From contig OW804094.1 in the NCBI GenBank assembly GCA_942159475.1, positions 58,028,966 through 58,092,965 of the forward strand: a stretch of DNA of 64,000 bases, written 5' to 3'. This stretch comes from Sthenelais limicola. Lineage: Eukaryota; Annelida; Polychaeta; Phyllodocida; Sigalionidae. How positions within the stretch are numbered: the first letter of the stretch is position 1; every line of letters starts with the position of its first letter. Under the pieces are notes generated by a model. That model saw nothing but the letters and a program-made list of their open reading frames with translations, did no database searches and was not told the origin of the DNA. Position numbers and translations under genes: made by a program. Positions 1 through 21,992 of this stretch are shown here, in pieces.

Positions 1-388
1 CCAGTCTTTCCAAGTCAGTAACTGTCATTCCAGTATTACATGCCAACAACTTAATTATAATATCTCTAGGGTAGTTGCAAGACTCTATTTTTAACATCGT
101 CCCGACGAAATAGCTTTTTAACATTGACAGGTATATGTACTGCTGCTTTCGTGATCGATCCTTCCAGCTCATGTGATTGATGGCTATTCTCGCCCTCCTA
201 TTTGGCATTTCTCTAACCAAGAAACGAGAAGCTCCCCACCAAATATCTTTTAAATGTGATTCCATCTCAATTCGCCTCCTAGCGTTAGCCCCTCTAAATC
301 TCAGGTGTGGTTTCTGCATGTACAGACGTGCCAATCGAATTACCTGTATCACTTCTGCTCTCTCTCCCCTCGTTATAGGTCTAGACAT
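1..388 (-). CDS. Unrecognised open frame, runs off the left window edge
   Basis: The minus strand is open from an ATG at 386-388 (MSRPITRGERAEV...) to base 1, 129 codons without a stop. The peptide is rich in Arg and Lys, has mixed hydrophobic spacing, and looks like real coding sequence rather than chance. I recognise no domain. It lies just downstream (minus direction) of another minus-strand exon-like frame at 497-820, so the two may be exons of one gene. I could not find an acceptor that joins them in phase. A diverged transposase tail is possible. Confidence 0.35.
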   Translation of the reverse strand, partial: MSRPITRGERAEVIQVIRLARLYMQKPHLRFRGANARRRIEMESHLKDIWWGASRFLVREMPNRRARIAINHMSWKDRSRKQQYIYLSMLKSYFVGTMLKIESCNYPRDIIIKLLACNTGMTVTDLERL

Positions 389-496
389 TTTCCTCGATAG
401 TCAGTATTCAATGCTCACAGGCCTATTAAGCTGTACACTGTGTCCTCACCCAACTCCAAAAATACCTTCTCACTGCCTATAAGTGAATACACTTAC

Positions 497-820
497 CTTG
501 ACTCTCGCCCATGCGCTTGGACACAGCTCCTTAATGTTATTCAGGTCCACCTCTTCCGTAAAAACTGCGTGAATTTTATCTGCTGGGATGAAGGTTAGGC
601 CACTTATATATTGATAAAGAATCGCTCTATCACACCGTTCGTATGCCACTCGTTTCTTCTCCGCTTCTAACGATAAAATATTGCATATTACCCGACGTAT
701 TAATACGTGGGCAATATATTTATACTGCTGGTATTTTGTTCTTGCCAACGGGAACACAACATGATGGCGGCAACACACTAACAAGCGAGAGGATCGAGCT
801 CCCGACTTTATTAGGATTAT
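497..820 (-). CDS. Predicted exon of an unassigned gene
   Basis: The minus strand is open for exactly 108 codons between a possible acceptor (ctatag just above 820) and a strong donor (AAG then gtaagtg at 496-490). The peptide includes AILYQYISGLTFIPADKIHA. That stretch vaguely recalls the helical region after the catalytic core of MULE-type transposases, but the similarity is too weak to name it. The phase is 0 at both ends. The NADAR LINE begins immediately to the right, and another exon-like frame on the same strand lies beyond the LINE at 7822-8121. The LINE may therefore have landed inside this gene. No ATG start is required by this model. Confidence 0.4.
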
Positions 821-872
821 CTATAGCAGATCGCACCTAAATTATCCTTTAAAGTGTTCAACATATCCAGGA

Positions 873-2642
873 ATGACCCTCAATAGATCTAGGAACCTCA
901 GATCAAGCATCGATTTTAGTTCTAAGAGTTTATTCAACGAATCTGACATTAAAAGTATGGCCCAACTGGGTCGTACACAATTGCCTACCGGAATCAACAT
1001 GGATCCGTGCCAACAGTTTGTGCTCTTACCGAGGGAATACTCAAATTCTCAAAGGGAATTTAATGTGAATGGTCAACAAAACATGCAGATAGCTCCCACA
1101 AGTTCCCAACAAGTGAGGATCCCAGCAACTGGAAATGATAGATCAGCGATCCAATCATCCAACGAAGGACAAAGTTTCGTCCCAACTCAAGCCACAATGG
1201 CCGGGTATAGACAGGTAGCCATTCCAGTACAACAAGACACCTCAGGAGTAAACCAGATAAGTCAATATTCCTCTCACTATCCTGATATCCCGCACGATTT
1301 TATGCAAAAGTTTATTGCCCGCGAAAAGAAAATTGATGCACTGTTGTCTGGTATGGAGAGAATACAGGGATCGATCGAGAATTACGGAAATATTGCCCTG
1401 ACGAACCAATCGGACATTGGTATTTTGAACACGAACACCCAAGGTATGAAATCAAGCATAGTCCAGTTAAATGACAATATGAAAGGGGTAGTAGCAAATC
1501 AAGTTAGACTAGACCAGACAAATTCTGACATTAACAAAAGCATCCAAGATCTCCAAACAACGATCACAGATCTATCTCTCAAATTGGAATTGAATTCCAA
1601 TAATCTAGCTGCGATAAATAGTCGGCCAAATTTACCCCAGGTAAACACTCAGCCTATTACATCACAGGCACCCACGCCCACTCCTATTAACAACACGCCA
1701 ATAGGGGAAAACCCCAGGGAAAAGAATGTTATTCTAAAAGGGGTTGAAGAAAATGACGGAGAGAAATTGGAAGAAATAGTAAAAGAATTGTTTGAGCATA
1801 TGGACTTTAGATCAACTTTCGCAAATCCTGAACGACTGGGTATCAAAAGGGAAAGCGCTGGTAATCCCTACCACCGCCCCATCAAAGTCACACTTCTCTC
1901 AATCCGCAACAAAATTGACTTGTTCAAGGGAATTAACAAACATAAACAAAAGCCTCAATTAGCTGGGATATGGGTCCAAGGCGACAACACAGAGGAAGAA
2001 CAGCTTCACATGAGCGAGGCTCGATCAATAGCCTTTGCTGCACGAGCTTTACATGGATTAGAAGCCAGGCCTAAGGGCATTGATGTGTATATTGCGGGTG
2101 TAACATACTCAAGAGCTAACTTTGATAAATTGCCAAAAGGCCTAGACAAGACTACTGTGTCAACCTTTTCAACCCCAGACGGCACAGCCTTTCAAGGGCA
2201 TATGAGCCCTTTATCCAACCTTTTCAATTGCCCAATGGAATTAGATGGGATTGAGGCCCAATCGGTAGAACAACTATTTCAAGTCAAGAAAGCGATCGAT
2301 TGTAATTCGCCCCCAGAGCTCATTGAAAGACTGAAGTCTATCAAGAACCCCTACACGGTGAAAAGAATCGCCAAACAGATAATAGTTACTCCTGACTGGG
2401 AAAGGAAATCGCCCGACGTATTATACGAATGTATGAAAGGAAAATTTGCCGAAAACCCCACACTCAAAGATTTCTTGCTTAGAGACAACAAGAAATTCTA
2501 CTATGAAGCTACCCACGATCCCACATATGGCTGTGGAAGATTTCTTTCTGAGTGTACTCTGCTAACGAACGATCAAGTTGATAAAAACAGTAATCTTTGT
2601 GGACAGATCCTGGAGAAAATCAAGAGAGAACTCACCACCTGA
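873..2642 (+). CDS. LINE ORF1: coiled coil, RRM-like and C-terminal NADAR domain
   Basis: This 589-residue ORF has a Gln/Asn/Ser-rich N-terminus, a coiled coil at about 150-250 (heptads around VRLDQTNSDINKSIQDLQ), and a Pro/Thr linker. At about 282-395 is an L1-ORF1-like RRM region (EKNVILKGVEEN, then RPIKVTLLS, then GIWVQGDN). At about 430-589 is a NADAR (YbiA/DUF1768) domain. NADAR signatures seen are SPLSNLF, the Glu in SVEQLFQVKKA, a KF..NP.LK..LL helix, and ATHDPTYGCGR. The last stands where most family members have a D..WG.G motif, so Trp is replaced by Tyr. NADAR proteins act on ADP-ribose derivatives, and some remove ADP-ribose from guanine in DNA. LINE ORF1 proteins are RNA-binding chaperones. 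An enzymatic role in this LINE is inference. The start is the first ATG after an in-frame stop region. Confidence 0.88.
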   Translation: MTLNRSRNLRSSIDFSSKSLFNESDIKSMAQLGRTQLPTGINMDPCQQFVLLPREYSNSQREFNVNGQQNMQIAPTSSQQVRIPATGNDRSAIQSSNEGQSFVPTQATMAGYRQVAIPVQQDTSGVNQISQYSSHYPDIPHDFMQKFIAREKKIDALLSGMERIQGSIENYGNIALTNQSDIGILNTNTQGMKSSIVQLNDNMKGVVANQVRLDQTNSDINKSIQDLQTTITDLSLKLELNSNNLAAINSRPNLPQVNTQPITSQAPTPTPINNTPIGENPREKNVILKGVEENDGEKLEEIVKELFEHMDFRSTFANPERLGIKRESAGNPYHRPIKVTLLSIRNKIDLFKGINKHKQKPQLAGIWVQGDNTEEEQLHMSEARSIAFAARALHGLEARPKGIDVYIAGVTYSRANFDKLPKGLDKTTVSTFSTPDGTAFQGHMSPLSNLFNCPMELDGIEAQSVEQLFQVKKAIDCNSPPELIERLKSIKNPYTVKRIAKQIIVTPDWERKSPDVLYECMKGKFAENPTLKDFLLRDNKKFYYEATHDPTYGCGRFLSECTLLTNDQVDKNSNLCGQILEKIKRELTT

Positions 2643-2766
2643 TCTTTGATTAATTCCTGAAAGCTAAGTGACACTATATTCTCTATCTCTAACCTATCCT
2701 ACTGCCATTTTCACCTTTTCGTCAAACCTGTAAATTTGCCAGCGGATCACTTTCTCCTGCATCAGA

Positions 2767-3420
2767 ATGGAGAAATTTAAAATATTACTGCTCGGTGACT
2801 CGAGGTTAAAAGGATGGAAAACTAGGATTGACCTGATACTAAGGCAGCATGGTTTCCAAGATTTAGAGATTACATGTTTGTGTATACCCGGAGCTAGGCT
2901 TCAACGCCTTGGGGAAGAAGCTTACACCAAATATCACTGGAAACAGTTCGACTTACTCTATATTATAGGCGGAGTGAACGAATTCACTGAGAAGGTGAAA
3001 TACAAAAAGGTCTACCCCCGATTCGCAACAAAAGACGCCTATACGCGACATATTAAACACGAAATTATGAAGCTGATCTACTACGCTACAGCTATGTCTA
3101 GAGCCGTCATTATGACTGAGATTGTGGGCCTCTCCCTAGACATCTACACCGATGGCTGGGCGAGTAGCTCTGAAGACCAGAACCTTATTCACGAAGCCCT
3201 AGTCGATATCAATCAAGAAATACGTAGAATCAACAGAAGAAATGGAATGATAGCCCCCCACTACGAGGGAATCGTTCACAAAAAAAGAAAAGGCTACACC
3301 TCTCACAGATATGTGTCCAAAACTAAAGACGGACTCCACTTCAGTGAAACAGCAATAGCCAAATTTATAAATATCACAATGACTACCTTTTACAGAAATA
3401 TCCATACCCTATGCGAATAA
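2767..3420 (+). CDS. LINE ORF2: SGNH/GDSL hydrolase-like protein
   Basis: This 217-residue ORF lies 124 bases downstream of the NADAR ORF. SGNH hydrolase blocks are visible. Block I is LLLGDSR with the nucleophile Ser at about residue 12. Block III is IIGGVNEF (Gly and Asn of the oxyanion hole) at about 68-75. Block V is DGLHFSE, with the catalytic Asp and His at about 188-191. The triad looks complete, so the enzyme may be active as an esterase. SGNH domains are known in ORF1 proteins of several CR1/L2-group LINEs and in Ngaro elements, usually fused. Here the domain is a separate ORF. The length fits the family. No signal peptide is evident. Confidence 0.82.
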   Translation: MEKFKILLLGDSRLKGWKTRIDLILRQHGFQDLEITCLCIPGARLQRLGEEAYTKYHWKQFDLLYIIGGVNEFTEKVKYKKVYPRFATKDAYTRHIKHEIMKLIYYATAMSRAVIMTEIVGLSLDIYTDGWASSSEDQNLIHEALVDINQEIRRINRRNGMIAPHYEGIVHKKRKGYTSHRYVSKTKDGLHFSETAIAKFINITMTTFYRNIHTLCE

Positions 3421-3424
3421 ATCT

Positions 3425-3662
3425 ATCTCAGTTAACACGCGCAGAACGTGGCATGACTGATATATACACTACAGGCAACACATTCGTCTGTGGCAAGCCG
3501 ACTCAAATTAAATAATTCTGTACTAGATAGCTATTTTTTCATCTCAGTTAACACGCACAGAACGTGGCATGACTGATATACACACATTAGGCAACACACT
3601 CGACTGTGGCAGGCCGATTCAAATCAAATATTATCAATAAATAATCTGTATTAGATATCCAT
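3425..3662 (+). repeat. Imperfect tandem repeat in the LINE inter-ORF spacer (two 116 bp units)
   Basis: Two units start at 3425 and 3541 with 'atctcagttaacacgc' followed by 'agaacgtggcatgactgata'. They diverge slightly. The spacer 3421-4322 between the SGNH ORF and the EN-RT ORF is about 900 bases with no ORF. It also has a second diverged pair around 3799-3860 and 3911-3980 containing 'gccccgccc' and 'accgcacactttt'. These could be promoter or translation-control modules, but that is inference. Confidence 0.7.
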
Positions 3663-4322
3663 TTTATCTCAAATGTTTACTTGTCTATAAATACAACCAT
3701 ACTCTTTTCCCTTCAAGTCTAAAATCCCAATAGTACGGTCCAATCAATTGAAGAATCACATGCACCTAAGTAGCGTCAAATATCAATGCTATATCCCCAA
3801 TGGTACGACTCAAACATAATAGGCCCCGCCCTTTCTACCTCACATCGCACACTTTTTTCGTCTCTTTGCTCCTTCCACGATTATAACCTATTGTAAACTC
3901 AAGGTAAATTCATGCGGTAGTTCAACTCAAACAGAGATAAGCCCCGCCCCTTTTGCCACCAACCGCACACTTTTCTTGGTATATATACCTGCTCAAAGTA
4001 CAGAAAGCAACTAAACACACTACGACTGTGGCAATAGTGCTTTTCTGACCTTATCATATGTATTATTTCACTGATCTAATCCCATACTCTCCATCCACGA
4101 TGAGATTTACCTTAACCTAAAAGCTCCCCGAGTTTCCTCCATTACCCAAACCTTGACGGTCGGGAGCCGCCAATATGGTCCTTTCCACATAGGCAACCTT
4201 CTTATCTAATCAGTTTAGCAAGCACAGGCCAGCCGCCCGCCTGTTATCAAGGTAATAGCCCACAGCAGTAAACTGCATAAAGGGCTTATAAAGATATATT
4301 TCTCTTCTGACTCAAACACACC

Positions 4323-7184
4323 ATGGCGTTCAGCAAAGGACTTTCATTTGCACACCTAAATACGCAGAGTCTAAGAGGGAAATTCGACTCCTTTAAGAAT
4401 GAAATAATCAAACTTAAACCCAGTGTAATGGGAATTACTGAGACATGGCTGAACTCAAACCTAACTGATGATAATTATCAAATCCCTGAATACAATCTGA
4501 TCCGCTTGGACCGAAACTGGAATAGCACTAACCTCTCTACCCCTAAAAAAGGAGGGGGGGTTGGCTTCTATATAAAATCTTCTATAACATACATACCCTT
4601 AACGAACCTAAACTGTAGCAGCAGCAATGTTGAATGCTTGTGGGTCAAACTTGTTATACAGTACACGAAACCTATTGTGGTCGGTTGTCTATATAGACCC
4701 CCGACGGGAAGCCACACGGAGCTAGCAAATTACCTGAATGAGACAATACCCCAAGTCCTATCTAATCAGAAAACTGAACTTTTCCTGATGGGTGATTTCA
4801 ACATAAACTATCTCAACCATACTAACACAGCTGTAAAGGAACTAAAAGCCATAGAAACAAACTTTAATCTTAAACAACTAATAGACACTCCAACGAGATA
4901 TCACCTAAATCAAAATAACTCCCTGGAAGGATCATTAATAGATCACCTTTACACAAACTGCAGCATAATCTCAAAGGAAGGCGTATTAAACGTCAATCTT
5001 AGTGACCATGAACTTATATATGCAGTCAGAAAAAAAGATAAACTAAGAGTGGAAAAGGTAATTAAGATAGGTAGATCCCTTAGAAAATTTAATGAAATCA
5101 ACTTCCAAAGACGACTTAGAACTGATTATAACTGGCTACCTTTCTTTGAGATAAATAACCCAGAAATAGCATGGGAATTAATGATAGGCAGAATAACAAG
5201 AACACTTGATAACATGTGTCCAACCAGAAATATAAGGGTACAAAATAGTAACGATCCTTGGTTAACACCCCAACTGCTCGACCAGCTTAATGACAAAAAC
5301 AGAGCCAGAGCTGCGGCCATTAAATCAAAGACCAAAGCTGACTGGGATGAGGCCAAGAGACTTAGAAAGATAGCAAATCTAAACATGAAACATGCAAAAA
5401 GAGACTTTATAATAAGCGAATTAAATAACCACAATCACGACCAAAAGAAATTCTGGGAAACCATTAGTATTATCTCACCTAGCAAAAGAAAAACTGGTAT
5501 TATCAGCCTAGTAGACTCCAACGACAACATAATCCCCCCAAATGAATTACCTCACTATTTAAATCACTATTTTGTTAATATAGCGAAGGATCTTACTAAT
5601 GACCAAAACCCACACTGGAGACCAACCACCCCTCCCCTTCTCAGCCAAATTGACTCTGTCCAAACCAATATACAGGAAGTAGAGAAACTAGTCAAAAAAA
5701 TTGATATTAATAAATCCTCCTCCATTAAGTATATGCCGAACAAAGTACTAAAATGTGCTTTACTCACATTGATACAGGAATTCACCCACTGCCTAAACCT
5801 TTCATTCTCCACATCTAATATACCTAAATCCTGGAAAACAGCTGAGATCATTCCCCTATTTAAAGGAGGAGACCCTAGCAAAGTGAACAATTACCGCCCA
5901 ATATCCCTACTCCCAACCCCCAGCAAAATAATGGAAAGAATCATACACAACAGAATAGCTAATTACCTAGAAATGTACGAGATACTTAATGACAACCAAT
6001 ACGGTTTTAGAAAGGGAAAATCTACCACAGAAGCGATTATAGAATTCTCAGATGACATAGCCCTGAACCTTGACTCAGGCAATGACACACTAGTAACCTT
6101 TATCGACTTCCGCAAGGCATTCGACCTCGTAAATCACAATATCCTCCTTGATAAACTAAGCCATATTGGAATAAAAGGCAGTCTCCTTCAGTGGTGCAAG
6201 AACTACCTAGAAAATAGGATGCAATGCGCCCTAGTAAATAGCCAGACCTCATCACACATCAGCATCAATACTGGAGTACCCCAGGGTTCTATTTTAGGCC
6301 CACAAATGTTCATTATCTTCATAAATGACTTAGTCCATAATATCAATAACTGTAAACTCTCTCTATATGCCGATGACACGGTGCTATATATACAGGGAAG
6401 AAATATAGATATGATTTACTCCAATATGCAAAAGGCTATAGATAGTCTCCACAGTTGGTGCAACAGAAACCTTTTCGTTGTGAACACAGGCAAATCCAAT
6501 ACAATGTATATCACCAAATCTAGAAACAATAGAAAAATAGCGAGCACAAAACACATAACCTATCAGCAAAACGACTTAAAAACGGTCTCACAATACAAAT
6601 ATCTAGGCTATCTAATAGACGACAAACTGAACCAAAAACCTCAGCTAGCTCACCAGATTAAAACCATCTCTCACAAAACTTACCAACTGCAACAAATAAG
6701 AAAATTCATAAATACCCAAGCTGCCCTGAAGATTTTCAAAACTAAATTGCTCCCTTTTTTTGATTATGGAGATGTTCTGGTACACAACGCACACCAACCA
6801 TTGTTAGAGAAGCTCCAACGACTTCAGAATAGAGCCCTCAAAATAGCCCTACAGCTCCCATATGATACACCAACAGATATAGTTCATGCCACAGCGAAAA
6901 TACCCCTTCTTAAACACAGAAGAATTATGCATCTGAGAATATTAGCGTACAAAAGAACCAGAAACCCAATTTACAGAGAAACTCCCAACAGAAATACAAG
7001 AAACTTTGATGCTCCAAGATTAAAAATTCCCCGTTTCAGAACAAATCTCGCTCAAAATTCAGTAACCATTAAAACAGCACAAGCTTGGAATGAACTATCT
7101 GCTAGGCAACGAAACATCGGCTCCATAGAGGCCTTCAAATCTAATCAGAAACTCTGGTTAAATACCCTTTTCGCACAATTGTAA
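4323..7184 (+). CDS. LINE ORF3: APE-type endonuclease and reverse transcriptase
   Basis: This 953-residue ORF is open throughout. The N-terminal apurinic-like endonuclease shows HLNTQSLRGK, GITETWL, GCLYRPP, MGDFNINYL (about 155) and LSDHEL (about 226). The RT domain runs from about 490 to 760: NYRPISLLP (about 523), FIDFRKAFD (about 593), TGVPQGSILGP (about 650) and the catalytic LYADDTVLY (about 682). A thumb and a C-terminal region follow. No RNase H motif and no C-terminal zinc knuckle is seen. It makes the target nick and primes cDNA synthesis at the nick. The ATG sits in 'caccATGg', a good Kozak context, about 900 bases after the previous ORF, so independent initiation or a separate transcript is likely. 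Confidence 0.93.
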   Translation: MAFSKGLSFAHLNTQSLRGKFDSFKNEIIKLKPSVMGITETWLNSNLTDDNYQIPEYNLIRLDRNWNSTNLSTPKKGGGVGFYIKSSITYIPLTNLNCSSSNVECLWVKLVIQYTKPIVVGCLYRPPTGSHTELANYLNETIPQVLSNQKTELFLMGDFNINYLNHTNTAVKELKAIETNFNLKQLIDTPTRYHLNQNNSLEGSLIDHLYTNCSIISKEGVLNVNLSDHELIYAVRKKDKLRVEKVIKIGRSLRKFNEINFQRRLRTDYNWLPFFEINNPEIAWELMIGRITRTLDNMCPTRNIRVQNSNDPWLTPQLLDQLNDKNRARAAAIKSKTKADWDEAKRLRKIANLNMKHAKRDFIISELNNHNHDQKKFWETISIISPSKRKTGIISLVDSNDNIIPPNELPHYLNHYFVNIAKDLTNDQNPHWRPTTPPLLSQIDSVQTNIQEVEKLVKKIDINKSSSIKYMPNKVLKCALLTLIQEFTHCLNLSFSTSNIPKSWKTAEIIPLFKGGDPSKVNNYRPISLLPTPSKIMERIIHNRIANYLEMYEILNDNQYGFRKGKSTTEAIIEFSDDIALNLDSGNDTLVTFIDFRKAFDLVNHNILLDKLSHIGIKGSLLQWCKNYLENRMQCALVNSQTSSHISINTGVPQGSILGPQMFIIFINDLVHNINNCKLSLYADDTVLYIQGRNIDMIYSNMQKAIDSLHSWCNRNLFVVNTGKSNTMYITKSRNNRKIASTKHITYQQNDLKTVSQYKYLGYLIDDKLNQKPQLAHQIKTISHKTYQLQQIRKFINTQAALKIFKTKLLPFFDYGDVLVHNAHQPLLEKLQRLQNRALKIALQLPYDTPTDIVHATAKIPLLKHRRIMHLRILAYKRTRNPIYRETPNRNTRNFDAPRLKIPRFRTNLAQNSVTIKTAQAWNELSARQRNIGSIEAFKSNQKLWLNTLFAQL

Positions 7185-7521
7185 TCTCATACCGATAATG
7201 CCTACTGTCCGGTCCAATCCCTTTCCCCGCCTGCCCATAGACCTCAATACTGTTTGAGTTGAACACCTGCTTACTCTGACGTCCGCGCTTTTAGTTTATA
7301 TTATACCTAAATCTAGACACTGTGCAGAATGGATCTGAACGAGCCAGACCGTACGCTATACTAGCGTAAACGGCAACTAGATCACATAACCTGACGTACC
7401 AATTAGCCTCCAACATGGCTAAACTGTATCATAATGTATATTAGATAAGGCTCGAAACTTTTCAACAAATCTCAAGCCTCTGTTCCTTCTTTTTTACCTA
7501 TATAAACAATAAATACATTCG

Positions 7522-7640
7522 CTAACACTCCATCATCAATGATCTGAGTGGCAAAGCCCAATTTTTCTCGTAATCTCTCTCTAACTATAATTACCACTAA
7601 CACTCCATCACTAAATGATCTGAGTGGCAAAGTGCAACCT
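7522..7640 (+). repeat. Two-unit 75 bp repeat in the LINE 3' UTR
   Basis: The segment 'ctaacactccatca...atgatctgagtggcaaag' occurs at 7522 and again at 7597. It lies between the RT stop codon and the poly(A), so it is part of the 3' UTR. It may be a duplicated RT recognition element. An (AT)n run follows at about 7673-7690. Confidence 0.65.
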
Positions 7641-7821
7641 AGTAAATCTATACTTTATGCCCGAGAACCATGTATATATATATATATATCTATATAAATG
7701 TTTACCTATGTACACTTTCCCTGCTCAGTCTCCCTATGTAAGACTGGGACAGGCGAAAAACCCCGTGAGGGGACCTTCGATCCCCAGTATAAATAAAATC
7801 TTTAAAAAAAAAAAAAAAAAA

Positions 7822-9018: not shown

Positions 9019-12000
9019 TTACTGTGTATCCCTTATCTCATAGTCATCCTTCTCTCCCTCCTCTTCAGGCCAATTGTGGCCTATTTCTTCTGTGCAGGTA
9101 ATGTCTTGCCACCCCTTCTCATCTAGCGGGCCTTCTTCTTCATATTCGTGCAAAGGTAGTAAATCTGGCGACAGCAGTCTCTCCATAAAGTGACTGGTCT
9201 TGGATATACTGACCGGTTTCAAATGAGACACATGCACTGGTTTAGGCAGTGTTGCTCCAGTATCCATCCTCCTTAGTTTGGCCGTGCACCCTGTGGGTCT
9301 TGCACAGATGACAAAGGGGCCACAGAAATTCTTTTGCAACTTATATGCAGTTCCAGGTTGCAGGAGGCGATTCACCTTCATATATACCAACGATCCTGAC
9401 CTCAACCTGTGTGCATTCGCCTGCCTATCATAATATTCTTTCATTTTCGCCTGTGACGTCAGTAATGCCTCCCGAGCCAGGTCCCCATAGATTTCTTGTT
9501 TCTCGACGATCTTGCCCAGCTGCTCCAAAAGGGGCCTCATTTCTCCCTCGTATTCCTTTAAAACATTTTCGTGGGGAAGTCGTGGGAACCTACCGTACAT
9601 TAGCAGGTAAGCTGGATAGTTTGTTGCGCTTGAATCCGACGCATTCATTGCAAATACAATCGGGGCCACAAATTGACACCAATTTTTCTGATCTTTATTT
9701 ACGTATGCTCTCAGGGCTGTCTTAAGGCTGCGATTAAATTTCTCGATTTGACCTTGTGTCTGAGGATAGTAGCTCGATCCCAGGACCTGCCTAATCCCCA
9801 TTACTGTGCAGAAATTTCTGAACAATTTGCTAGTAAATGAAGAACCGTTATCGCTGAAAAGGGTGCATGGCACGCCCAAGACAGCCACTACGTGCTCAAA
9901 GAATTCAGGTATCAAGGTTTCAGATTTTATGTCTTTTGTTGGCCAAGCTACACAGAACCTTGTGGCTACATCACAGACCGTGTGCACATATTTATAGCCT
10001 CTGCTCGATTCAGGCAGTGGACCTATGGTATCAATCTCGATAGCGTCCCATGGTACCTGCGACAGCTCCTTAACGGTCATAGGCACCCTGATAGGATTAG
10101 GATTTGGTTTTACCTCCAGACATTTCTGACAAGACCCGATATACTCACCTATGTCCCTAGCCATTGATGGCCAGTAGTACCGCGGTGAAGCAATGCTAAG
10201 CATCTTCTTTATACCCAAATGCGCGCCCAGACCGACGTCATGTATTTGATTTAATAACTTTTCCACCATAGACTGTGGGACCACTAACTGCGCTCTTTCT
10301 TCTATCTGGGCTTTTCTCGTCCTTGGTGGTACCCTGTACAGGATGCCGCCTGATAGTAAGAAGCAGTCGTGTTGTAATAAAATTCCCCTTGCTCTAGTGT
10401 TATCCTTAGGGAGCTTTTCTCTCTCAATGTAATTTGTCATATCGCTGCAAAACTCGTCAGTTATTTGCTCCTTCTCGAACACTTCTCTCGTACCCAAAGT
10501 CCCATACTCAGTGATGAGCTTCTCATAGAACGCAGTATCAGTGATTTGCACTTCTCGCACCCTTACTCCCTTTCGTCTCCTCTCTCTTTGATACTTACCA
10601 ACCAATGATGGGACTCCCAAAGTCTTCCTCCGTCTTGAGACTCCTTTGTGGATTAGGTCTGTCCCCTCTGGTGTCTCTTCCTCAGCTTCTGTCTGCTCCT
10701 CCTGTGCTGGTGTGTCATGGTTGTCAGGGTCAGACTGACTATCCTCTTCTTCCGAGTCTTCCTCACCCAATTTCCTTGCTTTGTCTCTTTCCTCGATCCA
10801 CAGCGCCATTCTTCTCGTTACACGTGGGTTTTTTCTAGTAACCATCATTATTTGCTCTCCTGGCGTGCCCAGGCGCGTCACCACTGTGCCATCGACTCTT
10901 GGGAAGTCCTTACCATCATCCTCGCTTGGTGCTGTGTCTTGCTCTGGTTCTGGTGCACTTACCTGGATAATAGGCGTGTCATCCTTCTCATCTCGCCTCT
11001 TATTCCTGAGACGTCCATTTTTTAAGATTGACGGTCTCCTATACTTCCTGATGGGCGATGCTTCCAGTACCTCCTCCTTATCAAAGAATCGGATGTGATT
11101 CACCGCCTTGAATCTTACCTGCCTCTGCTGCTGTCCCTGCTCTTCTTTTGCTGTAATGCCATCCCCAAAATATGGCATTCTTGATAAAATATCGGCTGTG
11201 ATGTTGCATTTCCCTTTGATGTGCCGCAAGGTGAAATCAAAATTACTGAACCAGTCGATCCAACGAGCCATTCTTCCTGTAAGATCCTGTTTAGCGTTTA
11301 AGGCCAATAATGCCGCATGATCAGTGTATACCTCAAAGTGACTGCCCAGAACGTAATGCTTGAACTTTTCCAGGCCATACCGGACCGCCACCAGTTCCTT
11401 TTCTGTCGCCGAGAAATTTTGTTCTGCTGAAGACAGACTTCTTCCTGCAAACGCAACCGGCCTATGGAAGCAATTATCATGAAGCTGTGTCAACACGATG
11501 CCAATACCAACTCGAGACGCATCACACCAGATAGTGAACCCTTTAGAATAATCAGGGTATCTTAGAACGACATCTTCGCACATCGACCGCTTTACCGCTT
11601 TAAACGCTTTATCTGCCTCTGTATTCCACTGAAAACGCTCTTTTCTACCAAGCTTTTTCGTCAGCTGGTACAAGGGGACCATTTTTTCTGCAAACCCAGG
11701 AATGAATGTCCTGTAGTAATTTGCCAGACCGTTAAAGGCCCTCATTTCCCTGACAGTTTTTGGTATTGGATATGAACGAATTATACGAACCTTCTCTGGG
11801 TCTGGTTGTAGCCCATCTTTCGTTACTACAAACCCCAGAAATTGCATTATTTCGTACCCAAACGCACATTTTTCTGCCCTGAACTTAAGCTTCGCCACCT
11901 GGAATGCTTGCAATACCTCTTCCACGTGCTGCAGATGTTCCTCCCATGTTTGTGATGCTATAATTACATCATCCATGTAGGGTAGTGCATTTGGCACATA

Positions 12001-13728
12001 TTTCAACACGCTCTCAATCACCGAATGAAACGCTTTTGGCGAAGTTTTAAGTCCCATCGGCATGACCTTGTACTGAAACACCCCTCTGGGCGTGACAAAA
12101 CTAGTCTTGGGCTTGTCTTCTGGCCTTAGAGGCACTTGAAAAAATCCTGAATGGCAATCCAACTTTGAGAAAAATCTTCCCCCCAGTCCCCCGACGTTTT
12201 CCAACGTCTCGTCTGCTGAAGGGAAGACCCTACATTCGTTCTTTATACATTTATTAATTTTTCTGTAATCTATGACAATTCTATATTTTTTGTCCTGCCT
12301 TGCAGCTGCTTTCCCTTTTTCCACCAGGAAGCATGGCGCAGCAAATTCAGACTCGCCATTCGTTCGTTCAATAATGCCCAAACGCATCTGCTCCTCCAGC
12401 ATTGTTTCCAGTACCCTTGTCATATGAGGGTTTGTACGGTATGGACTTCGAATAGGGGCCACGTAATCTTCTTTCAATTCTATTTTATGTGCGAAAATGT
12501 CTGTTGTCGAGATCGGCGAATCTTTTGTGGCGAAGACCGCGCGGTAACGCTGTAGCAAACTCGCCATACTTAGTTTTTGCTCCGCCGTCAGCTTCTCGCC
12601 TAGGGTGTAATCAACCCTAGTCTCACTGCATTTTGTGCTACCTACCTCCTCGATTGGCCGCCCCGATTGACCGGGAACCCCAGTTTTTACATAGTCATCT
12701 TCATTGACCACTGAAAATGCTGCCAAAACAGAACCCTTTCCCAATTTTATTGGCGTGTTCGCAGCGTTAAATAAGGTAACCGGTATATTGTTCCCCCCCT
12801 GCTGTGGCCTCACGAGGGCTCTCTTGACCGCAAATGGGACCTGCACACATCTTTTCAAATTGTCAACTACTCCTACTGCATGATTTAAATTTTGATGCGC
12901 CGAAACCACTGCCATGCAAGTAAATTCTGATTTTGGAGGTATTATTTTAGGCTTAGTTAATCTAACGGTGTAATGGTCAGGATCTTGGATTTGGAAGTCA
13001 ATCTTGGCCTTTCTTGCTTTCAAGAAATCGACTCCTATGATACACTGAAGGGATAAACCCTTCACAACATAAAACCATGCGTTAGTGCGAGCTTTTCCAA
13101 TGTTAATAGACAACAACACCCTTTCATTCGACTTGTGGCGCCCCCCGTCGGCTGTGTAAATAACCAGATATGTCTGTACACGGCGAAGCAGCGCCCCTTT
13201 TTCCTGCACTACTTGGTTTAACGTATCAGTCGAAATACAACTGATACTAGCTCCCGTGTCCACCAGGCAGCTAATTTTTGCCGAGCCAACTGTGCAAATT
13301 GTTCTGCAGTTTTCCAGTTGGACTGTCACTTTACCCGCGTCACTGTCCTGTAATACCAGGCGCGAGGAACGATCATCGCCCTCCTTATTATCAATTCTAC
13401 TGTTTTGTGTCACCTCTTTATGTTTACTTAAGGACATCAACCCATTTTCCTTTTTCTTTTGAAGTTTCAATTCCTGCGCCGCTCTATCATTTTCACGCTG
13501 TTCCTTTTTTTTCTCCTGTAACTTCCATCTTCTCCTTTTCTGGTTCCACCTCTTTCTCATTGCCTTTTTCACCTCACTCTCCCGAAAGGCCATCTCCTGC
13601 ACTTCCTGAGTTCCTTTCTCCTGACTCATACTCATGTCACTATCATTTATTGAAACTGAACTTCCGCTTTCATCCTCTTCATCCTCTTCAGATTGATCCT
13701 CCCTTTCTGCCGGTATGGCTGGCGACAT
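9019..13728 (-). CDS. pol: Gypsy Pol polyprotein (protease, RT, RNase H, integrase)
   Basis: This is 1,569 residues from the first Met, but translation most likely enters by frameshift from gag further upstream. Protease: CLVDTGASISC (about 155). RT: YRIVIDYRKI (about 481), PMGLKTSP, and PYMDDVIIA as the catalytic box (about 584). RNase H: FTIWCDAS (about 733), TEKELVAV, YTDHAAL (about 801). Integrase: a HHCC finger (HDVGLGAHLG, then CQKC; about 1161-1195), then the catalytic Asp of EIDTIG (about 1228), Asp of SDNGSSF (about 1289) and Glu of GQIEKFN (about 1326). A GPY/F-like NFCGPFV module lies near 1469. No chromodomain is seen. A charged insert of about 200 residues separates RNase H from integrase. 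All catalytic residues are present, so it is probably functional. Confidence 0.93.
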   Translation of the reverse strand: MSPAIPAEREDQSEEDEEDESGSSVSINDSDMSMSQEKGTQEVQEMAFRESEVKKAMRKRWNQKRRRWKLQEKKKEQRENDRAAQELKLQKKKENGLMSLSKHKEVTQNSRIDNKEGDDRSSRLVLQDSDAGKVTVQLENCRTICTVGSAKISCLVDTGASISCISTDTLNQVVQEKGALLRRVQTYLVIYTADGGRHKSNERVLLSINIGKARTNAWFYVVKGLSLQCIIGVDFLKARKAKIDFQIQDPDHYTVRLTKPKIIPPKSEFTCMAVVSAHQNLNHAVGVVDNLKRCVQVPFAVKRALVRPQQGGNNIPVTLFNAANTPIKLGKGSVLAAFSVVNEDDYVKTGVPGQSGRPIEEVGSTKCSETRVDYTLGEKLTAEQKLSMASLLQRYRAVFATKDSPISTTDIFAHKIELKEDYVAPIRSPYRTNPHMTRVLETMLEEQMRLGIIERTNGESEFAAPCFLVEKGKAAARQDKKYRIVIDYRKINKCIKNECRVFPSADETLENVGGLGGRFFSKLDCHSGFFQVPLRPEDKPKTSFVTPRGVFQYKVMPMGLKTSPKAFHSVIESVLKYVPNALPYMDDVIIASQTWEEHLQHVEEVLQAFQVAKLKFRAEKCAFGYEIMQFLGFVVTKDGLQPDPEKVRIIRSYPIPKTVREMRAFNGLANYYRTFIPGFAEKMVPLYQLTKKLGRKERFQWNTEADKAFKAVKRSMCEDVVLRYPDYSKGFTIWCDASRVGIGIVLTQLHDNCFHRPVAFAGRSLSSAEQNFSATEKELVAVRYGLEKFKHYVLGSHFEVYTDHAALLALNAKQDLTGRMARWIDWFSNFDFTLRHIKGKCNITADILSRMPYFGDGITAKEEQGQQQRQVRFKAVNHIRFFDKEEVLEASPIRKYRRPSILKNGRLRNKRRDEKDDTPIIQVSAPEPEQDTAPSEDDGKDFPRVDGTVVTRLGTPGEQIMMVTRKNPRVTRRMALWIEERDKARKLGEEDSEEEDSQSDPDNHDTPAQEEQTEAEEETPEGTDLIHKGVSRRRKTLGVPSLVGKYQRERRRKGVRVREVQITDTAFYEKLITEYGTLGTREVFEKEQITDEFCSDMTNYIEREKLPKDNTRARGILLQHDCFLLSGGILYRVPPRTRKAQIEERAQLVVPQSMVEKLLNQIHDVGLGAHLGIKKMLSIASPRYYWPSMARDIGEYIGSCQKCLEVKPNPNPIRVPMTVKELSQVPWDAIEIDTIGPLPESSRGYKYVHTVCDVATRFCVAWPTKDIKSETLIPEFFEHVVAVLGVPCTLFSDNGSSFTSKLFRNFCTVMGIRQVLGSSYYPQTQGQIEKFNRSLKTALRAYVNKDQKNWCQFVAPIVFAMNASDSSATNYPAYLLMYGRFPRLPHENVLKEYEGEMRPLLEQLGKIVEKQEIYGDLAREALLTSQAKMKEYYDRQANAHRLRSGSLVYMKVNRLLQPGTAYKLQKNFCGPFVICARPTGCTAKLRRMDTGATLPKPVHVSHLKPVSISKTSHFMERLLSPDLLPLHEYEEEGPLDEKGWQDITCTEEIGHNWPEEEGEKDDYEIRDTQ

Positions 13729-13742
13729 TCCAACCGGCTCTT

Positions 13743-15932
13743 CTACTGAAAATTCTGCCGATACACTCCGTTTTTTACCACCCCAGTTGTTTTTGGTGAC
13801 TGAATGCTTGTTCTCTTATTCTTATCTTTCTCCTGGCGTCTCTCCCCTTCACCTCTTCTAGGAGTCCATTCTCTCTCTTCTACTGGTAGGTTTCTAGCAG
13901 GATCAGGGTGTGCTCTGACATCACTGGGAGTAACGTCATAACCCTTCATTGCCAGAGAAGCTATCATTGATTGAGTAGATCCCACTAGGTGAAGTCTCAG
14001 TGCTTTCTCATTTTGCTCGTCCGACAACTCATGTTTTCTGGCTGCTCTTCTAGCCTCTTCACAGGTGCGAGGAGCTTCTGTCAGGACTCTCTCCGCTAAT
14101 CCATCCTTTAAACCTGCTATAAAAGCCTTCAGTTTCTCATCCTCGTGCAGCGATGTCCTTGCCAGCAATACCAGCATGGCGTCTGCATAGGTTTCCACAC
14201 TCTCACCTGCCTCCTGTCGTCGACGCGAATAGTCATCTTTCACCTCACTATACGGCATCTCCTGAAACTTGGTCAAGAACTTACTTTTGATATCTGAGTA
14301 CGACAGTGTACCCCGTTTTCTGGCCGCAACTGATGCGACTTGTTGGTAATATGCTTTAGCTGATCCCTCCAATCTACCACCCAGCCCCTGCAGCCAGTAC
14401 ATCTCAGGTATGCCCAAGGCACTTGCATAGTCCTCATACTCGGTTAGGAATTCAGACACATTTCTGGTCGCTGTTGAGTGCCGAAAATTTTCGGGCCCCC
14501 TAATGAAGTGTCTCATTGCTGCCCCTCCCCCTTCGTTAGACTTATCTGACCATCTTCCTGTTTGTGCAGGGGTAAACGCTGGGAGCACATTAGGTAGCCT
14601 ATACATCTCGGTTATATCCCCGGAATCTTCTGAGCAAATCGTACTACTAGCACCTATTTTCGTTGCTTGCTGGCTTGTTCTATGGGGTGTCCGCAGTATG
14701 CTATTTTTAGGCTGCTCTACTCCTCCAACGTTCGTGAGATTTCTGACCATGTCTGTAAGGTTTTTCCTGTCTTGTTTGTAACGCACAGACGCATCTCTAA
14801 ATAGGGCACTCTCCTTTTCATGTTCTATTTTCAGCTTATCCATCTCTTCTGCTAGCCAGTTTGCCCTTGCTTCCCTTATTTGGTTTTCCTTTTCCATTTC
14901 CTCACACCACTCTCTATTTCTAGCCTCTCTCACCTCCTCCATTTCCTGTCTTGCTATTTCTGCTCTCTCCCACTCCTCCCGGTCGCTTTCTTCCTTCCTA
15001 TTGGCTCTAGCTCTGGCCCGTCTTTCCTCCTCCAGCTCCCTTTTCAGCTCCTCCAACTCCTTGTTATGTTTTTCTTTTTCTTTCGTCATATATTCGTTTC
15101 TCTGTTGTTCTGTCTTTTCCATTTTCTGCTGTGCATTTTTCCAGTCATTTTGCAGCGTTATAATTATATCCCTATTTCCGTCTTCTGCAGTTTTCACCCT
15201 TCGTCGTGCGCCATCCTCCCATGCTAGTTTTAGTACGTTTATTCTAGCTTCGTGCCTATCTTCGGCATCTTTTAACATTTTTTCATTCGTTCGTTCCCAA
15301 TCACTTCTCATATCCTGGACTGCCCTCAGGGTATCTTCCTCCGCTGCTTTAAGAGCGGCTTGAGTTCTTTGCAACTCTTTGCTGACAATATCCACGCTTT
15401 GCCTGAGCAGCTCCTCTTTGGCCCCTTGCGGGCTTAAGTAGTCAAAGTCTGGATTATACGGGAGTGGCACCAATGGCTCTGTGTAATATGGCGGCTTACC
15501 AGCGTCCCACGTTACTTCAGGTATTAATGGCACACTAGGGTCATCACAAAAATCTGCTGCGAATGGATTGTTTCTTTTGGGCCTAGCACCTCCCACTGCT
15601 GTACTCTCAGCGCTCAAGTTAGCGTAACTCGGTGGTCCCTGGACAGAAGAGTCCGGAGATGAATCTTCTGTACTCTCTCTTTCTGTCTTCACCTCCCTAT
15701 TCACATGAACCCCCACACTAGGTCTTGCGGACGCCTTCATTCTTGCCAATCTTTTCTCCATTAATTTAGCAAGATTTTTTATTCCATCTTTGATTATGGA
15801 CACCTTTTCCCTCTCCACTTTGCCGATTCGTTCTGTTGTTTCAGCAAAGTTCTTTGCACTTTGTGTAATTCGAGCATTGTTCTCCTGTATTTCCTTCACC
15901 AAGTCCGCCACTGAAGACTCCTGTCTCGACAT
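13743..15932 (-). CDS. gag: Gypsy Gag with long coiled coil
   Basis: This is 729 residues starting MSRQESSVADLV. A short N-terminal helix is followed by a Ser/Pro-rich part. A very long charged coiled coil lies at about 185-405 (EELKRELEEERRARARANRK and similar). The capsid-type Retrotrans_gag region is at about 470-640 (FLTKFQEMPYSEVKDDYSRR, then GESVETYADAM, then FIAGLKDGL). The C-terminus is basic and low-complexity, and I see no CCHC zinc knuckle. The gag stop (TAG, 13743-13745) lies within the pol frame, giving a gag-pol overlap with a slippery heptamer. Gag forms the virus-like particle. The coiled coil is longer than I expect for gypsy Gags. Confidence 0.88.
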   Translation of the reverse strand: MSRQESSVADLVKEIQENNARITQSAKNFAETTERIGKVEREKVSIIKDGIKNLAKLMEKRLARMKASARPSVGVHVNREVKTERESTEDSSPDSSVQGPPSYANLSAESTAVGGARPKRNNPFAADFCDDPSVPLIPEVTWDAGKPPYYTEPLVPLPYNPDFDYLSPQGAKEELLRQSVDIVSKELQRTQAALKAAEEDTLRAVQDMRSDWERTNEKMLKDAEDRHEARINVLKLAWEDGARRRVKTAEDGNRDIIITLQNDWKNAQQKMEKTEQQRNEYMTKEKEKHNKELEELKRELEEERRARARANRKEESDREEWERAEIARQEMEEVREARNREWCEEMEKENQIREARANWLAEEMDKLKIEHEKESALFRDASVRYKQDRKNLTDMVRNLTNVGGVEQPKNSILRTPHRTSQQATKIGASSTICSEDSGDITEMYRLPNVLPAFTPAQTGRWSDKSNEGGGAAMRHFIRGPENFRHSTATRNVSEFLTEYEDYASALGIPEMYWLQGLGGRLEGSAKAYYQQVASVAARKRGTLSYSDIKSKFLTKFQEMPYSEVKDDYSRRRQEAGESVETYADAMLVLLARTSLHEDEKLKAFIAGLKDGLAERVLTEAPRTCEEARRAARKHELSDEQNEKALRLHLVGSTQSMIASLAMKGYDVTPSDVRAHPDPARNLPVEEREWTPRRGEGERRQEKDKNKRTSIQSPKTTGVVKNGVYRQNFQ
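13770..13776 (-). promoter_or_regulatory. -1 ribosomal frameshift slippery site A AAA AAC
   Basis: In the gag frame the codons read GTA AAA AAC, which is the canonical X XXY YYZ heptamer. A -1 slip continues as AAA AAA CGG in the pol frame, which is open from there through the protease. The gag stop comes about 25 bases later. A potential stem (GCCGGT with ACCGGC, inner TGG with CCA) lies about 35 bases downstream. That is farther than the usual 5-9 base spacer, so the stimulatory structure is uncertain. Confidence 0.8.
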
Positions 15933-17640: not shown

Positions 17641-19410
17641 TTATTTCCGTTTTCCCTTTCCCCTTGTTCCCCCCCCTGATTGAGTGGTAGAGTGATAGGG
17701 TTGTAGGTATGGGGTCTTGGAGAGGAGTTTAGTGATTATTGGGTATCCTCTGGTTGCCTGTGTGTTGATTATGGCTTGGGCCCTGAGCATGTTGGAGAGG
17801 CCGTGAACCTCTTGTTCTATTGGATCGAGTAGAGGAAGGTGAAAGTGTGAGGTGGCTCCACACTGGGTGAGGAAGTGCACCGGAAAGAACTCGGTCAAAT
17901 CTTGCTGGCAAAGGACACAGGTGGGGCCTTGTGTTAGACTTGGTTGGGCGCCCACTCTGATGGCAAGTACATGTCTCCTGAGGTGCTGGGGGACAGAGTG
18001 TAGCTGTTGGAGTGATTGGGCGTCATGAATTTGGCTCTGCCAGAACCATAGAGGATCAGAGTCTCTGCGCTGTTCGCTGAAGTATGAGATGATGTTATTG
18101 GCTATGAGTTTGTCATTGATGGTCTTGGTGATAGTGGGGAGACCTATTCTTGCTGAGCCTAGGTCGGTAGCGGCTGATTTGGCTAGGTGGTCCGCCCTTT
18201 CCTTGCCTGGTATGCCTACATGGCTTGGTATCCAGGTGATGGTGATGGGGTGCTCCTTAGAGAGGAGGTGGATTGTGTCTGCTATTTGACACTTGGGGTT
18301 TTCGTGATGAGATCGTAGGATGTGGATGGAGGTGAGGGAGTCAGTGAAGACTTGGGTGATGGCGTTGCCTGATTTGATTGAGTGAGAGATGGCCTGTTTG
18401 ATGGCCAGCATTTCGCAGTAGGTGATGGAGGTGTTGGGTGGAAGGGTAAGGCGCCATTCCATGTTGGTATTTGTGTAGGCTGCGCCGGCCCCTAACCCTG
18501 GTATGACTGAGCCATCTGTGTAGTAGGCGGTGGGAGAGGTGTCCAGGGTAGGATATAGGTGAAGGAGTTGTTCCTTGGACATCTCTGTCTTGGAAGAGAA
18601 ATCAGGGTGGATGATGAAGGTGATTCTAGGAGGTTCCCATGGAGGGGACTTGTCCCGACAGGTGATGATTGGTTCATGATCGGTAGAGTGTCTTTTGTAG
18701 ATGGCGGCAGCTCTCATTGGCCAGATGGGCTTGTGGAGGTCCTGCCGTTTTCTGAGACTCTGGGTGATGGAGGTGTGGAGGGGGTGTGACGGGTCTCTAG
18801 CAATCTTGTTGACTAGTCGGGCAGTATGCTGCTCCATTCGGAGATGGAAGGGGAGAGTGTTTGACTCAGCCAGGATGGCGTTGTTCCCGGCTCGTGTGGG
18901 CAGGAACATGGTGGCTCTGATGGATGACCTTTGTATGGTGGAGGCCTTGTCGACGGAGGACTTGCAGGCATTGAGTAGGGCGGGGGAGGCATATTCCAGG
19001 ATTGAGTCTATTGTGGCCTTTCTGATGAGTTGAATGTTCTTGGGGGAGGGACCATCGGGATGAGCTGAGAGTATTTTGAGAGGGGTGAGGGCTTTGGAGC
19101 ATCTTGTGGCAAGATCTGATGAGTGTTGGGTGAAACTGAGTTGGGAGTCCATTGTGACCCCCAAGAATTTGTGTTGGTATGTCCATGGGATTGGTGTGCC
19201 TCGGATGGTTAGGCGCTCTAGTGGGGGCTTGGCTCCGAAAACCATGGCTGCTGTTTTGGAGGGTTCTACATCAAAGCCTATGGAGTTTAGTGCCTCTATT
19301 ATGTTGTTGACCGATGATTGGGCACGTTTGATGCTCTTCCCATAGGGCTGGTAGTAGGTTACATCATCCGCATATGTGATGATTTGGCCTCTTGCATCAA
19401 ATAGGGCTTC
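17641..19410 (-). pseudogene. LINE ORF2, 3' part: RT catalytic box to RNase H
   Basis: The frame resumes right after the TIR insertion with EALFDARGQ, then the RT catalytic TYADDVTYY, the thumb region, and an RNase H domain. RNase H shows YYTDGSVIPG (first Asp), YCEMLAIKQA (Glu), VFTDSLTS (Asp) and WIPSHVGIPG with ERADHLAKSA (His and last Asp). A Cys/His cluster (CVLCQQDLTEFF, then HFLTQC) precedes a basic tail. The frame is intact to the stop at 17641. It has no own start: the apparent first codon comes from the transposon end. Confidence 0.88.
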
Positions 19411-20221
19411 CACTTACACGTCAAACGTGACCACCGTCAGGAGTGGCCAGTGGCGACGGTCAAACGGTGACCACCCATGGCCATTTTTGACCGTCGCTCT
19501 TGACCGTCCTCGGTATACACATACACATCAAAAAGTGCCAGAATGGTAACCGTCGGACGGTCCACTAGGAGGCACCGTCGGACGGTCCATGGTATCCACT
19601 TGTACGTCGGACGGTCCCCTAGACACCACCAGACTTTTGATTCATTATTGTATGTACATTTCTGGTCATATTTCTACATATATATTAGCAAAGCATCGAT
19701 CTCCAGACTCTACCAAACTCCCCTTGATATTACCAGATATATTAATTTGAAATATATATGATCAATTCATGCATACACACGGTATAGGCATGGCTTGGCA
19801 TGGCATGTTTCTAATGATCTTGATAATCATGTATGTTTAATATTTATTTTGTTTCATATATGTTTAATACATGATCTTGAGATTTGGTAATGTAATCATA
19901 CGGCTTAGTAACCTCTAGTAACCATCGACGAAATGTTTATTTAATTTGATATTATATTTTATTATATGTTCACAATTGCTTAAATATATGAAAACAATCG
20001 CTCTTTATATACCTGGTAATACCGAAAAAAGAGACATTTTAAATGGAAAGAAAGAGCCCGGGAAACGGCCCTCATCAGTCATTGCTTGATATTTCTGGAC
20101 GAGTACACATACTTATATACAAGCTCTGGACTTCTCTTATTTTATTTGAAATGAAAGCCTAAACAGGGCTTGATATATTAAACAGAATACCATGGAGATA
20201 CTCAAGAAAATGTAATTTACA

Positions 20222-21487: not shown

Positions 21488-21992
21488 ATAGGGGTTCCCT
21501 AGAGAGAGGAAACATATATAGATTCACCAAAATGGCCATAAGCAAATTCGGGACCAGGAAAACACCCACATATCGAAGTAGGCAGTAAAATATGCCCAAA
21601 ATGGCCCTAAATTAATAAAAACCAAGTGAAATGATAAAAATAAACTTAAAATAAGTGTACAAATGAACTGCAAAATATTCACATGTGTCACCCAGAGGTA
21701 TCAGAGATAATGACAAACTTCGGTAGAACCATAATTATCAAGAACAAAAACCAACAATTTTCAGGTGGTCACTTTTGACCGTCGCTTGACGGCTGCCCCT
21801 CCGGTCAAAGAAGTACCCCCTGACATCTTTGACCGGAGCATGGACGGTCAAACGGGAGGTATGGACGGTCAAACCGTCCCATGCGACTGTCCGACGGTCG
21901 CCTCGGTATCCACTTACACGTCGGTCAAAATGTGCCATGGCACCGTTCGACGGTGACCGCGTGGTATCAACCGACGTGTAAGTGGAAGCCGA

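Follow-up and report, generated by a model that had tools for sequence, protein, structure and literature searches.

The closest described counterparts of the element reported here are long interspersed nuclear elements (LINEs) of Crassostrea gigas, filed as Tx1, in several of which the first open reading frame (ORF1) appears to hold a NADAR domain whose role is unclear (PMC12477816, Genome Biol 2025; this and all other papers are cited for the sections that bear on the points made here). Our subject is a LINE with a NADAR domain at the C-terminal end of its ORF1, located in a stretch of 64,000 nucleotides from the polychaete Sthenelais limicola (contig OW804094.1, positions 58,028,966 to 58,092,965; in its entirety 'the window'), for which a reading of the letters alone, hereafter the original prediction, had proposed such a fusion and knew of no established description of it; on the latter point it is superseded by the report on C. 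gigas. Both sets of elements share a NADAR-like domain in a LINE ORF1. In a comparison made by description only, they differ in that the S. limicola element has an SGNH ORF between ORF1 and ORF2, and in that its ORF2, of 953 amino acids, has what we take to be a CR1/L2-like C-terminus. The three-ORF layout with its separate SGNH ORF, together with the selection result given below, adds to what those sections of PMC12477816 describe, which was the one paper found to link NADAR to LINEs in a survey of the NADAR and retrotransposon literature that covered most other papers by title only.

Further known systems resemble the element in part. Gypsy elements of Ectocarpus likewise combine a retrotransposon with a NADAR domain, of the YbiA family and within Pol, but they are long terminal repeat elements (PMC12477816). 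ZfL2-1 and other LINEs with an esterase (type IV) ORF1 encode an SGNH-type esterase and have a coiled coil in ORF1; there, however, the esterase is a domain of the ORF1 protein (ORF1p), whereas here it is a separate ORF and ORF1 carries NADAR (PMC3905857). Jockey/TRAS LINEs with a virus-like SF1 helicase have also acquired an enzyme domain that occurs in RNA viruses, but this is a helicase, proposed to counter host silencing, and not a NADAR (PMC5563155). DarT1-NADAR toxin-antitoxin pairs and viral NADARs share the domain family and the core catalytic residues, but are antitoxins, standalone proteins or viral polyproteins and not LINE proteins (PMC11543638, PMC9503650). The scheme of Metcalfe and Casane comprises five ORF1 types and domain shuffling, with NADAR not named in the sections considered (PMC4120745), and what NADARs do in eukaryotes, animals among them, has been described as unclear (PMC11125620).

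Our analysis confirms that a NADAR domain terminates the ORF1 of a LINE. The frame of the original prediction (plus strand, 873-2642, 589 residues, containing SPLSNLF, SVEQLFQVKKA and HDPTYGCG) stands as read, and the fusion itself is borne out by (i) profile and fold matches to NADAR, (ii) the accompanying LINE ORF2, and (iii) copies elsewhere in the genome. The Pfam NADAR model (PF08719) matches ORF1 residues 445-587 with E=1.8e-14 and 54.7 bits against a curated cut-off of 35.1, and the ORF1s of all six relatives scored likewise lie above that cut-off (100-114.5 bits). Searching the PDB with phmmer retrieves the NADAR of Phytophthora nicotianae (8bau; E=3e-4), and a profile built from the window's domain and 13 phage, viral-contig, bacterial and archaeal NADARs retrieves two PDB entries up to E=0.001, namely those of YbiA and of the Phytophthora NADAR. 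With tblastn, 117 records gave phage matches, the best having E=9e-11 with 31% identity over 94%. The structure prediction that had been proposed as a check was made with AlphaFold from an alignment of 65 NADARs, which remained of 106 loci after filtering for length (101), removal of near-duplicates (72) and removal of seven by hand. Its mean predicted local distance difference test score (pLDDT) per ten residues is 92-98 over residues 440-539, 83 over residues 540-549 (which include E545 and D549), 67 and 53 over residues 550-569, and then 82 and 96. Foldseek aligns this model with 2b3w (YbiA; E=3e-6, TMt 0.70) and 8bau (E=4e-6, TMt 0.65), the next match having E=4.8; 38 predicted viral proteins match at E<=0.001, and the majority of the named ones are NADARs. 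The NCBIfam model for riboflavin-intermediate N-glycosidase (TIGR02464) scores 60.1 bits (E=2.8e-16), which is under its equivalog cut-off of 73.7, and this function is therefore not assigned to ORF1. In protein databases, neither ORF1 nor its C-terminus nor NADAR alone had a match among the word-sharing candidates that were scored (7994, 215 and 14, respectively), and no relative emerged when viral contigs were scanned with the NADAR domain on its own, with ORF2 or with the SGNH ORF.

NADAR-ORF1 and ORF2 are parts of one mobile unit that is present in many copies. The order is NADAR-ORF1, an SGNH-esterase-like ORF of 217 residues (ORF1b), the endonuclease-reverse transcriptase ORF2, and poly(A). 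ORF2 matches Pfam RVT_1 (E=8.3e-41) and Exo_endo_phos (E=1.3e-9), and human L1 ORF2p matches it with E=8e-13; its length and C-terminal pattern would suggest that it is CR1/L2-like (Jockey superfamily). When the assembly of the same genome (1.13 Gb, 161 contigs) was searched for NADAR, at least 150 places were scored, all above the Pfam cut-off (the 5561 first-look candidates are not a NADAR count). Twenty of these 150 loci, selected by hand to cover a range of scores and frame lengths and not as a random sample, were examined. In 19 of them an ORF2 relative, in some cases broken into pieces (e.g., L119), follows downstream in the same orientation; L134, a standalone NADAR, is the one without. 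Copies on different chromosomes agree over the whole unit: L121 and L122 are 97.5% identical over 6.8 kb in a single piece, L124 and L128 99.4% and 99.2% over 6.6 kb in two pieces, and L125 and L126 98.7-98.9% over 7.2 kb in four pieces, and the flanks of eight copies differ where they are readable (that of L124 is masked on the 5' side). A run of at least 12 A is located 285-545 nt past ORF2 in 14 of 18 scanned loci, the others being L124, L127, L133 and L137. At the SGNH position, an ORF of 204-289 residues was aligned in 12 of the 20 loci, and L125 has the equivalent of that in L126; no ORF of at least 150 residues stands there in L118, L120, L127 and L133, or in the broken L119 and L123. 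No target-site duplication was found for the window element, and among eight other copies the shared strings are at most 7 nt long, two copies being without usable flank or tail match.

The original prediction was to be given up if no other LINE copies had the same ORF1; such copies exist. A search of the genome with ORF1 yields 74 matched stretches, whose identity ranges from 38% to 100%, and residue 551 is reached or passed in 67 of them; besides the window itself they include single stretches at 100% and at 99%, several at 77-79%, three at 51-52% and a set at 43%. The 100% copy (L138, contig C4) is colinear with window positions 760-4897 at 99.7-99.8%, lacks about 200 bases at 2638-2837 and ends within ORF2; because it is colinear at 99.7% across the spacer between ORF1b and ORF2, the spacer belongs to the mobile unit. 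Homology to L139 (contig C3) runs, with large internal deletions, from 764 to 7818 in the poly(A), and the element is bounded at about 760-7821 since homology to L138 and L139 starts or ends there. More distant are L140 and L141, in which all three ORFs are open; their identities to the window are 51% and 42% for ORF1, 59% and 56% for NADAR alone, 65% and 59% for the SGNH ORF, and 55% in both for ORF2, in which endonuclease and reverse transcriptase were also found for L140.

Two of the loci show peculiarities of their own. At L134 (C1:94848400-94858300) the 160-residue NADAR ORF (Pfam E=3e-31) shares its stretch with a weaker NADAR-like match in a 474-residue ORF on the opposite strand and, about 3.4 kb away, with a 699-residue ORF containing reverse transcriptase and GIY-YIG domains, which by domain content we take to be Penelope-like. 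At L128 (C2:5740100-5750000) one NADAR LINE is nested in another, matches to the L132 element (99.9% and 98.2%) flanking an L124-like copy.

The NADAR domain has been co-inherited with the reverse transcriptase at the level of the main groups. Trees of ORF2 and of NADAR, each comprising 13 loci and the window, both recover the groups L118, L120 and L127; L121, L122, L131 and L136; and L124, L129, L130, L132 and L135, with L126 and the window apart, but do not resolve the order of the groups, and long-branch warnings were issued for the window in both. Against an outgroup formed by the 13 phage, viral-contig, bacterial and archaeal NADARs, those of this genome cluster together (support 100/96); since a clade of LINE NADARs excluding L134 is weakly supported (83/57), a single uptake of the domain is not established. 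The domain is under purifying selection. Ratios of nonsynonymous to synonymous substitution rates (dN/dS; Nei-Gojobori, own script) are finite for NADAR in five pairs, the remaining pairs being saturated. For the pairs L130/L132, L130/L135 and L132/L135, in this order, they are 0.023, 0.031 and 0.036 in NADAR, rough values given a NADAR dS of 1.4-2.2, as compared with 0.074, 0.038 and 0.041 in the RRM region, 0.055, 0.048 and 0.045 in the SGNH ORF, 0.085, 0.078 and 0.088 in ORF2, and 0.256, 0.217 and 0.160 in the ORF1 C-terminus, so that NADAR is the most constrained part of the element in this lineage. The value for NADAR of L139/L140 is 0.107.

The catalytic residues and ADP-ribose contacts named for the Phytophthora NADAR (PMC11543638) were transferred by way of the 8bau alignment, with the chain numbering taken as the paper's plus 2. 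Counts refer to 19 rows, namely the window and 18 loci of its genome, L134 among them; L119 and L123, in which the domain is not covered by one open frame, were left out. The equivalents of E43, W89, E125 and D130 and the asparagine of NxxG are invariant in all 19, and the position of K50 is K in nine, R in nine and E in one. In the window, the catalytic E43, K50 and E125 correspond to E466, K473 and E545, and the glutamate near 466 at which the original prediction had guessed is thus the residue aligned with catalytic Glu43 of the solved enzyme. Three further positions are ligand contacts and do not define the NADAR family: W133 is W in 18 rows, the window having Y; R79 is retained in none of the 19; and R93 is R in two, K in 11 and another residue in six. 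The catalytic core is thus retained, and the ligand pocket is in part different; the ORF1 NADAR is probably catalytically active.

Of the region that the original prediction placed ahead of NADAR, the coiled coil holds up, and the RRM-like part, being without Pfam or PDB match and of low AlphaFold confidence, is unproven. The heptad score of the window's coiled coil is equalled by one of 300 shuffles; the corresponding numbers are 3 for L132, 11 for L120, 0 for L121, 28 for L127 and 6 for L136. The region that follows can be aligned with six other NADAR-LINE ORF1s, but has no Pfam match and, in a PDB profile search, no match up to E=1. Its designation as an RNA recognition motif (RRM) with C-terminal domain (CTD) for residues 276-430 is our assumption, made by eye and confirmed by no tool.

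ORF1b, of which the original prediction makes no mention, carries what we take to be the motif set of SGNH enzymes (Ser, Gly, Asn and His blocks); the blocks GDSR, PGA, GGVN/GGIN and DGLH are present in the window, L140 and L141. The asparagine of block III is retained in the window's lineage (GGVNE, GGINE) and replaced by cysteine (GGICD, TGICE) in 12 aligned loci outside it (L121-L137). ORF1b itself has no Pfam match. GDSL models match two of four SGNH ORFs of relatives (E 0.006 and 0.012) and that of L140 (E=0.008), in each case below cut-off, and do not match that of L141. A weak single-sequence model of ORF1b (mean pLDDT 48) has two Foldseek matches at E<=0.001 (best E=5e-4), and its 19 best matches are acetylxylan esterases, GDSL lipases/acylhydrolases, PatB and LAE5 (titled alpha/beta hydrolase), with the exception of rank 13, titled a phosphatase-domain protein. 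A PDB search with a profile of six SGNH ORFs gave nothing significant, a GDSL protein ranking first (E=0.07) and the LINE ORF1 protein 4c1b last (0.95). By analogy, the SGNH ORF might provide a second enzyme of the LINE, perhaps a membrane- or lipid-related one, as has been proposed for other LINE esterases (PMC3905857). The coordinates of all parts of the element are collected in the table.

Table. Parts of the NADAR-bearing LINE in the window (residue numbers refer to the protein named).
Feature	Position in window	Residues	Strand	Basis and remarks
LINE element	760..7821		+	~7.06 kb; 5' end from copies L138 and L139, 3' end at poly(A)
ORF1	873..2642		+	589 aa; open frame; own-genome matches
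Coiled coil of ORF1	1407..1619	179-249	+	AlphaFold long helix; heptad score
RRM/CTD-like region of ORF1 (label assumed)	1698..2162	276-430	+	alignable with relatives, 18-23% identity
NADAR domain of ORF1	2181..2639	437-589	+	Pfam, fold match; E466, K473, W509, E545, D549, Y552
ORF1b	2767..3420		+	217 aa, SGNH-esterase-like; GDSR, PGA, GGVN, DGLH
Spacer ORF1b-ORF2	3421..4322		+	902 nt; two 90-nt direct repeats, 3425-3514 and 3541-3630
ORF2	4323..7184		+	953 aa; endonuclease residues 12-229, reverse transcriptase residues 521-763
3' untranslated region and poly(A)	7185..7821		+	A run 7804-7821

The spacer contains two pairs of direct repeats, one of 90 nt at 89% and one of about 50 nt at 80% (within 3425-3630 and 3808-3974). 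A motif common to the spacer and the 3' untranslated region was considered and dropped (best blastn E 0.067), and Rfam gave no match at gathering scores. On the minus strand, two ORFs lie next to each other at 2-388 and 470-784, the latter just entering the 5' end of the element; they resemble exons of a different gene, and the sequence separating them has, as judged by eye, a GTAAGT-like donor. Minus-strand ORFs flanking the element show homology over 23 residues (E 5e-4 in a single comparison). Beyond the element lie, likewise on the minus strand, a Gypsy-like element (9019-15932) whose pol comprises protease, reverse transcriptase, RNase H and integrase, with a weak Arc capsid match below cut-off (E=0.0015) in the ORF upstream of pol, and a second LINE in pieces (17641-26146), with an endonuclease-reverse transcriptase ORF (21914-23716) and an ORF for RNase H and the end of the reverse transcriptase (17641-19413) in separate frames. 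Farther away, ORFs at 49831-50697 and 52593-53276, about 2.6 kb apart and gag-like by eye, have a 227-residue C-terminal sequence in common.

What might a LINE gain from a NADAR domain? The explanation that we favour, and to which we give about an even chance, is that of an autonomous LINE whose ORF1p brings a NADAR hydrolase into the ribonucleoprotein particle (RNP), where it would clear ADP-ribose from guanine against a host transferase. ORF1p would multimerize through its coiled coil, presumably coat the element RNA and so carry the C-terminal hydrolase into the RNP; NADAR could then strip ADP-ribose, or another ribosyl group, off guanine in the element RNA, the cDNA or the nicked target, and reverse transcription might thereby be spared blockage by a host ADP-ribosyltransferase. 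NADARs are reported to take ADP-ribose off guanine in DNA (PMC11543638) and to act on guanine-ADP-ribose in RNA, though not at phosphate ends (PMC11833690). The retention of catalytic residues, purifying selection and these known activities make the role against ADP-ribosylation that the original prediction had suggested better motivated, and we infer guanine-ADP-ribose as the substrate and host ADP-ribosylation as the selecting force. Guanine-directed transferases, the pierisins and CARP-1, are known from butterflies and clams, the action of NADARs on their adducts being assumed rather than shown according to the same authors (PMC11543638). A NADAR tethered by ORF1p would also fit a proposal made for animal RNA viruses, namely that their NADARs are directed against the ADP-ribosylation of macromolecules by the host (PMC9503650).

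Several observations weigh against this explanation. First, the ligand pocket of the window deviates from that of the solved enzyme: K501 and S513 occupy the positions of R79 and R93, which along with W133 are ADP-ribose contacts (PMC11543638), and W133 is replaced by Y in the window, L139 and L140 and by F in L141. Second, an E. coli C7 enzyme with R at the position of K50, as found in nine of our 19 rows, was active in vitro without affording rescue from DarT1 (PMC11543638). Third, apart from the roughness of the ratios noted above, constraint in the window's own lineage is not strongest on NADAR: dN/dS for window/L139 is 0.045 in the coil, 0.056 in NADAR, 0.059 in the RRM/CTD region and 0.199 in the N-terminus, and the proportion of nonsynonymous differences, used because dS is saturated, is 0.217 (SGNH), 0.286 (NADAR) and 0.297 (ORF2) for window/L140 and 0.292, 0.299 and 0.296, respectively, for window/L141. 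Fourth, a search of the S. limicola genome for the DarT family gave no match, in a search whose control matched in one of 14 genomes and which did not extend to other guanine-directed transferases. Finally, YbiA-type NADARs also cleave intermediates of the riboflavin pathway (PMC9503650, PMC9303266).

The last point and the altered W133 would likewise be expected if the domain worked on small molecules and not on nucleic-acid adducts, degrading ADP-ribose derivatives, free or cyclic, or some other ribosyl metabolite that serves in host immune signalling or arises in RNA processing, and viral NADARs, above all those of phages, have been posited to prefer low-molecular-weight ADP-ribose derivatives (PMC9503650). 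We consider this unlikely: the fusion of NADAR to ORF1 in the LINE lineages examined favours a substrate within the RNP, and the same paper prefers macromolecular targets for the NADARs of animal RNA viruses. The deviating ligand contacts, with R79 conserved nowhere, R93 mostly replaced by lysine and W133 changed in the window, could also mean that NADAR is a non-catalytic module that binds RNA or ADP-ribose or mediates ORF1-ORF1 contact; a pure scaffold, however, would have no need of the invariant equivalents of E43, E125 and D130, and such a role seems to us likewise unlikely. That NADAR is a drifting passenger captured by one recent element is very improbable, for although LINEs are known to transduce host sequence, several deeply split lineages retain the domain and its dN/dS is low in all five finite pairs (0.023, 0.031, 0.036, 0.056 and 0.107). 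That a NADAR/SGNH gene merely happens to lie next to an unrelated LINE, or that the arrangement was created in assembly, as the 902-nt spacer and the want of a target-site duplication might suggest, has next to no probability, given that the order recurs genome-wide, that L138 is colinear across the spacer and that near-identical whole units are common to different chromosomes.

It is tempting to speculate further that NADAR is an old and essential enzyme of a whole LINE radiation, maintained because the host uses guanine ADP-ribosylation to label the RNA or cDNA of retrotransposons; that ORF1 represents a further type composed of coiled coil, RNA-binding region and NADAR, from which the esterase has been split off as an ORF of its own; and that the constraint on NADAR exceeds that on the reverse transcriptase in at least one lineage. 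Taken together, these propositions are doubtful at present, and a defence against retrotransposons by guanine ADP-ribosylation is not described in the literature on NADAR or on LINE-1 and PARP, as judged largely from titles. A large set of LINEs with NADAR in ORF1, in which the catalytic core is kept and dN/dS is low, nonetheless points to a substrate that is encountered during retrotransposition. The NADAR LINEs of S. limicola may thus offer a genetic system in which the role of nucleic-acid ADP-ribosylation in eukaryotes could be approached.

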